NCBI GenBank assembly: GCA_021828195.1
Contig: JAKASQ010000001.1
Span: 596,335-660,334, forward strand
DNA: 64,000 nucleotides
Direction of reading: 5' to 3'
Source of the DNA: Thermoplasmata archaeon
GTDB lineage: Archaea; Thermoplasmatota; Thermoplasmata; Lutacidiplasmatales; UBA184
The notes under the pieces were generated by a model, which worked only from the letters and a program-made list of their open reading frames with translations, searched no databases and had not been told where the DNA came from. This document shows, one piece after another, positions 20,355 to 62,361 of the stretch. A program made the translations under genes and the position numbers. The stretch's first letter is position 1. Every line of letters begins with the position of its first letter.

Positions 20355-21905
20355 GTGGTCGATCTGGCCCGGCGGCCCCTCATCGTCGGCAGCGGGATCG
20401 CGGGCCTCTACGTAGCACTCCGGTGCCACGAACTCGGCCTGAAGCCGACCCTCGTCACCAAGGCGCGACTCGAGGAGTCGAACACCCGGTATGCCCAGGG
20501 CGGCATCGCCGCGGCGATCGGATCGGACGACTCCATCGATCTCCACTTCGCCGACACCGTCCGCGCCGGAGCGGGTCTCGTCGACCGACCGGCGGCCCGG
20601 CTGCTCGCGCACGACGCCCCCGAACGGATTGCCGATCTCGTGCGGCTGGGGGTTCCTTTCGACACGGTCCACGGGGAGATCGCACTCGGCCAGGAGGCCG
20701 CTCATTCTCGGCGGCGCATCCTCCACGCCGGAGGCGACGCGACCGGGCTATCCATCGAAGAGACCCTCAAACGACGTGTCCTCGAGATGGGCATCGAGAC
20801 CCGAGAACGTACGGTACTGCGGGAGTTGCGCCCGTCGGCCACGCGCCGGGTCGTGGCCACGCTTTCCGACCCGGACGGTCGCGGGGTCGACCGGCTCGAC
20901 GCGCGGCCGGTGGTCCTCGCGACCGGCGGAGCGGGGAGCCTCTACCGGCAGAGCTCGAACCCATCGATCGCGACCGGAGAGGGCGTGGCCATCGCCTTCC
21001 GGGCCGGCGCGCTCGTGGCCGATATGGAGTTCATCCAGTTCCATCCCACGGCGTTCTACCGTCGCGGGGCTCCCCGCTATCTCATCTCGGAGGCTCTGCG
21101 AGGCGAGGGCGCCTCCCTAGTCAACGCCGACGGCGAGCGGTTCCTCGTCTCCGAGCACCGTGACGCGGAACTCGCCCCACGTGACGTGGTCAGCCGCGCG
21201 ATCGACCGGGAGATCCAACGCTCCGGTCACCCGTGCGTGTACCTCGACGCGACCGCCACTCCTCGGGACCGCTTGTTCGCGCGCTTCCCTTCGATCTGCC
21301 ACTTCCTCGCGGCCTACGGCATCGATCCGTCCCGCGATCGCATCCCCGTCGCGCCGGTCGCGCACTACATGATCGGCGGCGTGCGGACCGATCTCGACGG
21401 CCGGACGACGCTCCCCTCCGTTTACGCCTGCGGGGAGGTCGCCTCCACGGGCGTGCATGGCGCCAACCGCCTCGGGAGCAATTCGCTGATCGAGGGACTC
21501 GTCTTCGGCGAACGCGTTGCGCGGACGCTTGCGAAGCCGCGCGCCGGCAAGCCGCTCCGTACCCGGAGGACACTCGCCATCGATTGGCCGGTACCCCCCG
21601 CCGGACCCCAGGAGGAAGGCACGTTCGAGGAGGTGCAGGAGCTCCTGTGGGAACGGGTCGGAATCATCCGTGAGGCCGTCGGTCTCGAGAGCGCCATGCG
21701 GGAGTTCGGACGGATCGGCGTGTCGGTCGAGCGTCGGACCGAGGCGTTCCCAAGCCACCTCTCCCACGCCGCTCTGACCGCCTACCTCATCGCCCGGGCG
21801 GCGCTCACCCGCACCGAAAGCCGCGGAGCCCACTACCGATCCGATCATCCCGACCCGCGTCCGGAGTGGCACCTGCACCTCGGGCTCCAGCGCCGGGCGA
21901 CGTGA
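20355..21905 (+). CDS. nadB: L-aspartate oxidase
   Basis: FAD enzyme that oxidises L-aspartate to iminoaspartate, the first step of de novo NAD synthesis. The 516 residues include the dinucleotide-binding LIVGSGIAGLYVAL, the substrate-site TRYAQGGIAAA, FIQFHPTAFYRRGAPRYLISEALRGEGA, APVAHYMIGGVRTD and the FAD-binding HGANRLGSNSLIEGLVFG. The missing succinate-dehydrogenase-like C-terminal helical domain, usual for NadB, is partly present (about 90 residues). The start is GTG 20355. nadA and nadC are not in the window. A tnpB element is inserted immediately after its stop codon. Confidence 0.93.
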   Translation: MVDLARRPLIVGSGIAGLYVALRCHELGLKPTLVTKARLEESNTRYAQGGIAAAIGSDDSIDLHFADTVRAGAGLVDRPAARLLAHDAPERIADLVRLGVPFDTVHGEIALGQEAAHSRRRILHAGGDATGLSIEETLKRRVLEMGIETRERTVLRELRPSATRRVVATLSDPDGRGVDRLDARPVVLATGGAGSLYRQSSNPSIATGEGVAIAFRAGALVADMEFIQFHPTAFYRRGAPRYLISEALRGEGASLVNADGERFLVSEHRDAELAPRDVVSRAIDREIQRSGHPCVYLDATATPRDRLFARFPSICHFLAAYGIDPSRDRIPVAPVAHYMIGGVRTDLDGRTTLPSVYACGEVASTGVHGANRLGSNSLIEGLVFGERVARTLAKPRAGKPLRTRRTLAIDWPVPPAGPQEEGTFEEVQELLWERVGIIREAVGLESAMREFGRIGVSVERRTEAFPSHLSHAALTAYLIARAALTRTESRGAHYRSDHPDPRPEWHLHLGLQRRAT

Positions 21906-24490: not shown

Positions 24491-25264
24491 ATGCGGATCT
24501 CTCCCCGACATCCCCGGGCTGCGAGCCTTCGCACGCGCGCCCGTCTGGCCCGGGAGATGCGCAAGGGGGTCGTCGCGCCGGAAGGTCTGATCGCCCACGG
24601 CCGCGGCGAGGCCTTCGACTACCTCCTCGGCGAACGCAGCTCGGCGGGCGCGCGAAAGGCCGAGCGCGCGGCCGCCGCATGGCTCCTGGCCGCCCGACGC
24701 CCCGTGGTAAGCGTCAACGGCAACGTGGCCGCCCTCGCCGCACGACCGCTGGCCCGCCTCGTTCGGGCCCTCCCGGGCCTGCGCGTGGAGGTGAATCTCT
24801 TCCACCGCACTCCGGCGCGCGCCGCGAGAGTCGCCTCCCGACTTCGAGCCGGTGGCATCCGGACGGTGTTCGGGGTCCACCCGACCGTACGGATCCCGAA
24901 GCTCCCTTCCGACCGGGCCCTCGTCGACCGGGAGGGGATCGCCCAAGCGGACGTCTGCCTGATCCCGCTGGAGGATGGCGATCGCACGGAGGCGCTCCGC
25001 GCGCTCGGCATCCGCGTGATTTCGATCGACCTCAACCCGCTCTCGCGGACGAGCGAGCGCTCCGACCTACCGATCATCGATGAACTCACCCGCGCGCTCG
25101 ATCACATCACCCGGGCGATCCCCCTTCAGAAGGCACAGGCGCGGCCAGGATTCTTCCGGCCGTTCGACCGGTCTCGGGCGCTCGCGGATGCCTTCGCGAC
25201 GATCGAGCGGCGTCTCACCCGGGAGACGAGGGCTCGAGCGCCGCGGCCCTCACGGCACCGGTGA
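24491..25264 (+). CDS. 4-phosphopantoate--beta-alanine ligase
   Basis: Archaeal enzyme that joins 4-phosphopantoate and beta-alanine with ATP to make 4'-phosphopantothenate, replacing the bacterial PanC/CoaA route to coenzyme A. The 257 residues show the family-specific VVSVNGNVAALA, LRVEVNLFHRTPARAARV, the C-terminal SIDLNPLSRTSERSDLPIIDELTRAL and a conserved N-terminal H-P-R-A-A-S-L-R-T-R-x-R-L. ATG 24491 gives this N-terminus and lies 17 nt after the dehydrogenase stop, so the two may be co-transcribed. The partner kinase (pantoate kinase) is not in the window. The 3' end overlaps the convergent fRMsr-like gene by 50 nt. Confidence 0.93.
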   Translation: MRISPRHPRAASLRTRARLAREMRKGVVAPEGLIAHGRGEAFDYLLGERSSAGARKAERAAAAWLLAARRPVVSVNGNVAALAARPLARLVRALPGLRVEVNLFHRTPARAARVASRLRAGGIRTVFGVHPTVRIPKLPSDRALVDREGIAQADVCLIPLEDGDRTEALRALGIRVISIDLNPLSRTSERSDLPIIDELTRALDHITRAIPLQKAQARPGFFRPFDRSRALADAFATIERRLTRETRARAPRPSRHR

Positions 25265-25709
25265 GCCGGGTCGCGATCGCTTCCAGGAACCGCGCGTCGC
25301 TCTCGTCGTAGGCTCCAACCGCCGTCCCGTCGATGTCGATCTCTCCCAGGACGGTCGTCCCCTCCCGGATCGGGACGACGATCTCCGAGCGGGTCTCGAG
25401 GAAGCAGGAGAGATAATCCGGTTCCTGCCGGACGTCGGCGACGACGATCGATCGGTTCTCCCGCGCGGCCCGACCGCATATGCCGCGCTCGATCGGGATG
25501 CGCGTGTGCTCGGTCGCCGCCTCGCCGTTCCAGCCCTCGAGCACGAGCGTGCTCCCGTCCAGACGGTACACTCCGGCCCAACGATAGTGGGGGAACTCCA
25601 TCCGCAGGAAGCGGCAGATCTCGGAGAGGGCGGCCCGCCCCCTTAAGCGGCCGAGGATGGCGTCCACATGGAGGAGCGACGGCGTCATCTCGCGCGGATG
25701 CACGGTCAT
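25215..25709 (-). CDS. GAF-domain protein resembling free methionine-(R)-sulfoxide reductase
   Basis: A 164-residue GAF domain with the fRMsr pattern: GICGRAARENRSIVVADV, then DYLSC and TRSEIVVPI, and the C-terminal VLGEIDIDGTAVGAYDESD. In characterised fRMsr enzymes the Cys of the G-x-C-G motif and the later Cys form the catalytic/resolving pair; both are present here. Function would be repair of free oxidised methionine using thioredoxin. It begins 35 nt downstream of tRNA-Ser on the same strand without its own visible TATA. An alternative start is ATG 25688. A signalling GAF role is the alternative. Confidence 0.8.
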   Translation of the reverse strand: MTVHPREMTPSLLHVDAILGRLRGRAALSEICRFLRMEFPHYRWAGVYRLDGSTLVLEGWNGEAATEHTRIPIERGICGRAARENRSIVVADVRQEPDYLSCFLETRSEIVVPIREGTTVLGEIDIDGTAVGAYDESDARFLEAIATRLTGAVRAAALEPSSPG

Positions 25710-25743: not shown

Positions 25744-25861
25744 CGCCGAGGGGGAGATTTCCCCCCGGGACGGATCGACCGCCCCCGGTGTTTGAACTCC
25801 CGAGGCGTATTCCGCCACGAGCTTTCCAGACTCGCGCCGTACCGGACTGAGCCACCTCGGC
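25744..25861 (-). tRNA. tRNA-Ser(GGA) with T-loop intron
   Basis: Mature tRNA of 85 nt after removal of 33 nt. Acceptor GCCGAGG (25861-25855) pairs perfectly with CCTCGGC (25751-25745), discriminator G73 at 25744, no encoded CCA. The D-arm has GG at 18-19 and A21. Anticodon stem CGAGT/GCTCG encloses loop CTGGAAA with anticodon GGA. A long variable arm (GGCG-GAATA-CGCC) confirms a class II serine tRNA. The T-stem GGGAG pairs with CTCCC only when 25758-25790 is removed, giving loop TTCAAA-T. Without splicing neither T-arm nor acceptor can form. Confidence 0.9.
25758..25790 (-). other. Archaeal tRNA intron in T-loop (position 59/60)
   Basis: 33-nt insert between TTCAAA and T60. Its body folds into a hairpin (CCGGGGGCGG, loop TCGAT, CCGTCCCGG; 9 bp with one bulged G). 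Flanking bases form a relaxed bulge-helix-bulge: T54-A, T55.G, C56-G and an A57.G mismatch between two 3-nt bulges, with cuts that would fall as AA|C and AA|T. Exact cut sites are inferred from the need for a 7-nt T-loop. Confidence 0.82.
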
Positions 25862-25891
25862 ACGCCCCAATGCGAGGGACGAGAGTTCGCC

Positions 25892-25898
25892 GATAAAG
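25892..25898 (-). promoter_or_regulatory. TATA box for tRNA-Ser
   Basis: CTTTATC on the minus strand, centred 34 bp before the tRNA 5' end, predicting a leader of a few nucleotides removed by RNase P. Confidence 0.55.
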
Positions 25899-26159
25899 CT
25901 AGCGGGGAGGCGGCACGAGTACCGGCTCAGCCGGGAACCACCCGCACGATGGGCATCCCAGGGCCCGGCGACTCCCCGGAATCTCGTAGTCGCACTCGGG
26001 GCACGGAGCCGGCTCCGGGCCCAGGAGCGGCAGGCAATCGAAGCACGAACTCCCCCTCCGATCGCCGGGCAACACGACCAGATCCTTGCCGCAGAACACG
26101 CAGTGGGAGTAGCGATCGTCGGGCACCGAAAACGACCGGTGATCCGCGAACAACAGCAT
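25899..26159 (-). CDS. Small double zinc-ribbon protein
   Basis: An 86-residue protein with four CxxC pairs: SHCVFCGKDL, SSCFDCLPL, PCPECDYEI and GCPSCGWFP. This is two zinc ribbons in tandem with a short Pro-rich tail. Such proteins occur widely in archaea as uncharacterised nucleic-acid- or protein-binding factors, and no specific family was recognised. Start ATG 26159 is supported by a TATA element 28 bp upstream. Confidence 0.75.
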   Translation of the reverse strand: MLLFADHRSFSVPDDRYSHCVFCGKDLVVLPGDRRGSSCFDCLPLLGPEPAPCPECDYEIPGSRRALGCPSCGWFPAEPVLVPPPR

Positions 26160-62234: not shown

Positions 62235-62361
62235 GCGGGGATAGCCAAGCCCGGGCAACGGCGCAGGACTTAAACGGAAGGTACGCGCGGATCCTGCTCG
62301 CGAACCGTCCGAAGAGATCCTGCCGCGAAGGCGTTCGCCGGTTCAAATCCGGCTCCCCGCA
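62235..62361 (+). tRNA. tRNA-Leu(UAA) with anticodon-loop intron
   Basis: Acceptor GCGGGGA (62235-62241) pairs with TCCCCGC (62354-62360), discriminator A at 62361, no encoded CCA. The anticodon stem CAGGA pairs with TCCTG and the loop is CTTAAA-A with anticodon TAA once 42 nt are removed. The long variable arm (CGC-GAAG-GCG) marks a class II tRNA, and the T-arm is GCCGG-TTCAAAT-CCGGC. It begins 4 nt after the PRC-barrel stop codon. Confidence 0.95.
62275..62316 (+). other. Archaeal tRNA intron at position 37/38
   Basis: 42-nt insert at the canonical site. The flanks form a relaxed bulge-helix-bulge: C32-G, T33-A, T34-A and an A35.G mismatch between 3-nt bulges, with cuts expected as AA|C and AG|A, then a GGA/TCC helix inside the intron. 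The same A.G mismatch position occurs in the tRNA-Ser intron of this window. Confidence 0.88.

Follow-up and report, generated by a model that had tools for sequence, protein, structure and literature searches.

In Euryarchaeota with alpha4 or alpha2 splicing endonucleases, fewer than 10% of the tRNA genes were reported to bear introns, and at the canonical site only (PMC4090602). These enzymes are described as processing canonical bulge-helix-bulge (BHB) introns only, and non-canonical introns as following the gain of a CSL or ASL loop (PMC4090602, PMC4033280, PMC12397907). It was also reported that the alpha'2 EndA of A. fulgidus is limited to canonical motifs (PMC12397907), and that Korarchaeum was, as of 2014, the sole archaeon in which an alpha2 enzyme, with a special loop, occurs together with non-canonical introns (PMC4033280). 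In 2024, non-canonical introns were described as pervasive in Asgard genomes (PMC11291895). The intron models of tRNAscan-SE 2.0 were built in two sets, one from Crenarchaeota and Euryarchaeota and one from Thaumarchaeota (PMC8450103).

The tRNA-Ser(GGA) gene considered here lies in a 64,000-nt stretch of the genome of a Thermoplasmata archaeon (this whole stretch is called the window). Its T-loop intron is of a known kind; what is new is the presence of T-loop introns throughout a family of Thermoplasmatota with an enzyme of a class described as canonical-only. In the Thermoproteales, as far as they are described in the sources available (Sugahara 2008; Fujishima 2010, cited in PMC4033280, PMC8450103), short BHB introns likewise occupy non-canonical sites in many tRNAs per genome, and a spread of introns between tRNAs was likewise proposed (PMC4033280, PMC8450103). 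According to these descriptions, the Thermoproteales possess a heterotetrameric CSL enzyme, whereas a fused two-repeat enzyme without CSL or ASL is found here in Thermoplasmatota; the single canonical 3-4-3 register of the T-loop introns also sets them apart from the Thermoproteales introns so described. The Asgard Atabeyarchaeia and Freyarchaeia, also outside the old Crenarchaeota, are likewise rich in non-canonical tRNA introns, but there 92-95% of the tRNA genes are affected, with over half multi-intron (PMC11291895), compared with about 45% and one dominant T-loop site here. Korarchaeum cryptofilum likewise combines an alpha2-type EndA with non-canonical introns, but its EndA has a specific loop that is lacking here (PMC4033280). 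The permuted tRNAs of Thermofilum pendens and C. merolae share the 59/60 T-loop junction, but are permuted genes rather than genes with ordinary introns (PMC3218864). In the openly searchable papers, no report of T-loop introns in Thermoplasmatota was found, and a prior listing in GtRNAdb or in subscription journals is possible.

The tRNA-Ser(GGA) gene and its insertion

The features of the gene are given in Table 1. In the window scan, no tRNA was reported at this locus by ARAGORN or by Rfam at the gathering threshold, and Rfam at a permissive threshold returned only a truncated tRNA match to exon 1 alone (25861-25798, 22.8 bits), in line with the first-pass annotation, according to which a 3'-end-only annotation would miss the gene or call it truncated. 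When the intron is taken out, an 85-nt RNA is obtained that ARAGORN recognizes as tRNA-Ser(gga), and the perfect 7-bp acceptor stem, perfect 5-bp T-stem, and 7-nt T-loop that had been claimed for it are indeed restored. In shuffles of the downstream DNA, a perfect acceptor stem and T-stem appeared at any gap of 18-60 nt in 217 of 200,000 cases, which puts the chance for this gene alone at about 0.1%; it is conservation, beyond these odds, that makes the intron certain.

Table 1. Features of the tRNA-Ser(GGA) locus in window coordinates; the gene reads from 25861 (5') to 25744 (3').
Feature	Position	Strand	Evidence or remark
tRNA-Ser(GGA) gene with T-loop intron	25744..25861	-	R1 covariance model, 78.9 bits; ARAGORN on spliced form
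Exon 1, tRNA positions 1-59	25791..25861	-	100% identity in 17 other same-genus genomes/species
Anticodon GGA	25825..25827	-	ARAGORN, spliced sequence
33-nt intron, junction 59/60	25758..25790	-	cuts at 25791/25790 and 25758/25757
Exon 2: T60, T-stem 3' strand, acceptor 3' strand, discriminator G	25744..25757	-	
BHB central helix, 5' strand (U54 U55 C56 A57)	25793..25796	-	
BHB central helix, 3' strand (i-6 to i-3, GGGA; i-6 G faces A57)	25760..25763	-	ortholog pairing
5' bulge, A58 A59 ^ C(i1)	25790..25792	-	
3' bulge, A A ^ T60	25757..25759	-	
Inner intron hairpin, first pair an A.G mismatch, then 6 pairs	25764..25789	-	
TATA-like box, GCTAAGCTTATCG-like, here gctagctttatcg	25891..25903	-	about 30-42 nt upstream of tRNA 5' end

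The TATA-like box forms an AT-rich island against a GC-rich background and is conserved in same-genus orthologs, which suggests that the gene is probably transcribed. A gene for a GAF-domain protein (25215-25709, minus strand) follows the tRNA gene in the same orientation, its start lying 34 nt beyond the tRNA 3' end, and co-transcription of the two is possible. The second tRNA gene of the window, tRNA-Leu(UAA) at 62235-62361 on the plus strand, has an anticodon-loop intron; it was found by Rfam in a short-stretch scan (41.7 bits) and was not picked up by the whole-window scans.

An insertion of about 33 nt is present at the same point in this gene and in all 27 other loci of the genus whose 3' part is intact. 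When 48 distinct Ser-GGA introns of 33 nt are compared, 30 of the 33 intron columns vary and the flanking 11 and 6 exon bases are invariant; the base just 5' of T60 is among the most variable columns, and the 3' junction is thereby fixed. C56 is opposite G, and U54 and U55 are opposite A or G, in all 48.

The site is known in both empty and filled states. The T-loop is uninterrupted (TTCAAAT or TTCGAAT) in 12 genomes outside the family, some of them of the same order, and, within the family, in two genomes of one genus (g24), whereas the sampled genomes of five other genera (g25, g26, g27, g28, and g165) are intron-bearing. A filled site minus its intron equals the empty-site sequence, and the uninterrupted T-loops match the predicted splice product. 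The tRNA-Ser(GGA) with a 33-nt T-loop intron at 59/60, and with it a T-loop intron in a Thermoplasmatota archaeon, both claimed in the first-pass annotation, are therefore upheld by ARAGORN on the spliced RNA, by the orthologs, and by the empty-site outgroups.

In several out-of-family relatives (including loci L290-L292 and L298-L300), Ser-GGA has an anticodon-loop intron instead of a T-loop intron. Another Ser-GGA gene (L301, genome G046) has an anticodon-loop intron and, after the T-loop, an AT-rich stretch where the T-stem is expected, the region ending early; a longer T-loop intron is perhaps present there.

Introns of the same genome and their bulge-helix-bulge motif

The genome (1.62 Mb, 7 contigs, 93.6% complete) appears in a plain tRNA scan to be without many tRNAs. 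Introns were found by reading weak matches, and a covariance model (R1) was then built from ten of them. T-loop introns at 59/60 are present in 14 of the 44 recognized tRNA genes (the latter number being our own tally over several scans): Ser (GGA, GCT, and CGA), Arg (TCT and TCG), Asn (GTT), Gly (TCC), Ala (GGC), Asp (GTC), Gln (CTG), Glu (CTC), His (GTG), Lys (TTT), and Leu (TAG). The earlier report of the Ser-GGA intron was thus correct but incomplete, as at least 14 such introns occur in the genome and the trait is family-wide. For 11 of the other genes, splicing at the equivalent place allows ARAGORN to give the right anticodon. Glu-TTC and Pro-TGG genes were not found by the scans and the R1 model in this 93.6% complete genome.

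Insertions in the D-loop, with BHB-like folds, occur in four genes (initiator Met, Arg GCG, Lys TTT, and Leu TAG), of which Lys-TTT and Leu-TAG have D-loop and T-loop introns in one gene; the junctions of these insertions were not pinned exactly by ARAGORN deletion scans. Together with anticodon-loop introns in four genes (Tyr, Trp, a Met, and Leu TAA), the total is 22 introns over 20 genes, i.e., about 45% of the tRNA genes bear introns. The tRNA-Glu(CTC) that ARAGORN calls intact at 2480-2582 of contig C3 is a false normal call, its 3' half being read from the T-loop intron. A low-scoring tRNA-Arg(GCG)-like locus (contig C1, 85313-85385) exists in addition to the Arg-GCG gene with the D-loop intron and is likely a pseudogene or a chance match.

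In all 14 T-loop introns, U54-U55-C56-R57 of the T-loop pairs with the intron 3' end (i-6 to i-3) in a single register, giving a four-position helix flanked by two 3-nt bulges (A58 A59^i1 and i-2 i-1^N60), with the inner hairpin beginning at or near i2:i-7. A cut between the second and third bulge bases was observed in the ARMAN-2 complex (PMC12397907). The usual cleavage rule places the cuts here exactly after A59 and before N60, which leaves the mature T-loop. By geometry, all 14, the window copy included, belong to the 3-4-3 BHB introns; in addition, removal of the window copy's intron yields a complete tRNA by ARAGORN, and both EndA and RtcB are encoded. A relaxed motif with a centre of UUC only was rejected, since the usual rule would then leave a 6-nt T-loop, which is resolved by the 54-57 register.

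The central helix is fully paired in six of the 14, contains A57.G in seven, and contains C56.C in one (Asn). The window copy, with U54-A, U55.G, C56-G, and A57.G (three of four centre pairs) and an A.G first inner pair, is among the weaker of the 14. The hairpin and relaxed BHB described in the first-pass annotation thus hold for the hairpin, while "relaxed" is only partly apt, the geometry being the canonical 3-4-3.

Over ten isoacceptors, standard pairs make up 94% (100% in the acceptor stem and T-stem), a level approached by none of 500 shuffles and by no slid register. With regard to position 57, the table of 171 distinct precursors (G57 with C in 32 and U in 5; A57 with G in 120, U in 9, A in 3, and C in 2) is inflated by related sequences, and a fairer test is provided by the 14 isoacceptors of a single genome, which are not orthologous to one another: in these, G57 is always opposite C (6) and A57 never (8; Fisher p = 3.3e-4). 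The partner of A57 is G in the window's family, and U in His here and in the matches from Woesearchaeota, Heimdallarchaeota, and EA_24.

Distribution across archaea

As R1 also matches ordinary tRNAs (maximum about 62 bits), the phylum survey was run at a cut-off of E 1e-10, and nine candidates were scored per genome, so that all counts are floors. Of the 390 Thermoplasmatota genomes, 92 yielded at least one T-loop-intron candidate. In the window's family, the 23 genomes sampled each carry at least 5-8 T-loop introns; other families of the same class have at least 0-2 candidates per genome, and five genomes of a family in another Thermoplasmatota class (f28) have at least 4-6. A pattern scan of GTDB gave at least 118 contigs with Ser-type T-loop introns, mostly from Thermoplasmata MAGs and including Candidatus Lutacidiplasma silvani; Woesearchaeota, Heimdallarchaeota, and Methanomassiliicoccales contributed a few, and two bacterial matches look like chance. 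Same-site T-loop introns with A57-U centre pairing were seen at three Woesearchaeota loci (L080, L093, and L143) and one Heimdallarchaeota locus (L114).

Splicing enzymes and proposed processing of the introns

The genome has one EndA gene of 354 codons (locus L030, 718-1782; contig C6 near 20,400-21,400), and no second endonuclease subunit gene was found in it. PF02778 and PF01974 each match twice in the one 354-aa chain, in N-C-N-C order. The catalytic residues Y292, H300, and K331 and the bulge arginine R324 are invariant in the second (C) repeat, and the N repeat has no His matching the catalytic one. Two N+C repeats in one chain, with the catalytic triad in the second only, define the alpha'2 type, and this architecture suggests a homodimer. 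The first-pass annotation had proposed that the architecture of the endonuclease be determined, and this check returned one fused two-repeat alpha'2-type EndA and no other endonuclease.

No genus-specific insertion in EndA came to light when one was sought. A CSL is absent, as the segment YGSQLGDRLEL aligns gap-free to the wild-type enzyme of A. fulgidus but not to 3p1y, into which the CSL was grafted, and in the structural model (pLDDT 93) a tight two-residue turn (216-217) is found where the crenarchaeal loop would sit. The 11-18 residue loop with a key Lys by the active site, which marks CSL/ASL broad specificity, is lacking, with the ASL position taken from the text of PMC12397907 rather than from a residue alignment to 4FZ2. 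The two full N+C repeats also differ from the epsilon2 enzyme of ARMAN with its three units (alphaN-alpha-betaC), and the overall structural fit to 4fz2 is poor (TM 0.53-0.57). In Foldseek, the best matches are the fused enzyme of M. kandleri and the alpha'2 EndA of A. fulgidus. An EndA match is present in 27 of 27 near-complete genomes of the same class, nearly all with two matches in a single frame; of an additional 14 genomes, drawn from the family itself and from other families with such introns, 13 have a fused two-match EndA and one has no match. RtcB is also encoded (580.6 bits).

With gene anatomy, boundaries, conservation, covariation, empty sites, and the presence and type of the enzymes established, the Ser-GGA insertion is best read as a protein-spliced archaeal tRNA intron, cut by EndA and joined by RtcB (probability about 0.92). 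In the precursor, the T-stem (49-53:61-65), the central helix (54-57 with i-6 to i-3), and the intron hairpin would together form the bulge-helix-bulge; the single fused EndA, as an alpha'2-type homodimer, would cut both bulges, and RtcB would ligate the exons. Given the A57.G and A.G mismatches and the reportedly narrow A. fulgidus alpha'2 EndA, cleavage of the window substrate is not guaranteed by analogy.

If the insert were instead retained, the mature tRNA would have an enlarged, hairpin-bearing T-loop, which would break the T-loop fold required for the tRNA elbow. Retention is further opposed by the variability of the insert against invariant flanking exon bases, by the maintained pairing of the intron 3' end with U54-C56, and by the outgroups without an insert, and is very improbable. 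A pseudogene or an assembly error, with another intact tRNA-Ser(GGA) as the functional gene, could be envisaged since the genomes are MAG-based and a low-scoring tRNA-like locus does exist (C1:85313). However, the gene is single-copy: of the 84 family genomes with any match, 83 have just one. Exon 1 is unchanged in the 17 other species, and the insert recurs with compensating changes in dozens of species and independent assemblies. This possibility is thus refuted for practical purposes, and neither the assembly error in the intron segment nor the intact second gene, which the first-pass annotation had named as potential refutations, materialized.

On the other hand, protein splicing might call for a broadened or additional endonuclease activity, for instance that of an accessory factor or of a divergent subunit, given that alpha'2 enzymes are described as narrow. 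The A57.G introns, C56.C in Asn, and the D-loop insertions favour this, as does the literature in which non-canonical introns go with enzymes bearing a CSL or ASL (PMC12397907, PMC4033280); moreover, a constrained broad specificity is described for the best Foldseek match, the fused M. kandleri enzyme (PMC6379350). Nevertheless, such an activity seems unlikely: both PF01974 matches lie in one chain of the only EndA gene, the CSL site has no insertion, two matches per genome are the rule across the class and in other T-loop-intron-rich genomes, and the canonical motif geometry largely removes the need for it. Of a broadened enzyme, which the first-pass annotation had given as one of two possible implications of the intron, this fused, loop-free EndA shows no sign. 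It appears somewhat likely that the natural substrates of a CSL/ASL-free alpha'2-type EndA include a large set of T-loop introns found across the family, among them the conserved A57.G variant.

An intron ending in (Y/G)GAANN would fit nearly any tRNA at 59/60, and such introns could settle in 14 tRNAs and across the family because UUCRA is near-invariant in all tRNAs. A spread of such introns to many tRNAs is plausible; it may have come about by copying between tRNAs or, just as well, by several independent gains at a permissive site. A known idea is that tRNA introns may act as a shield against integrases using the T-loop region. About one third of the tRNA genes in this genome are missed or misread by default tools, an error that distorts tRNA counts in MAG quality scores and in codon analyses.

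The family breaks the position half of the canonical-only rule and mostly keeps the geometry half, so that the two halves are separable. If a CSL/ASL-free EndA does process these introns, a position outside the anticodon loop would need no broadened enzyme, only the canonical 3-4-3 geometry, and UUCRA, being near-invariant, would constitute a universal landing site, with a single intron end fitting all tRNAs.
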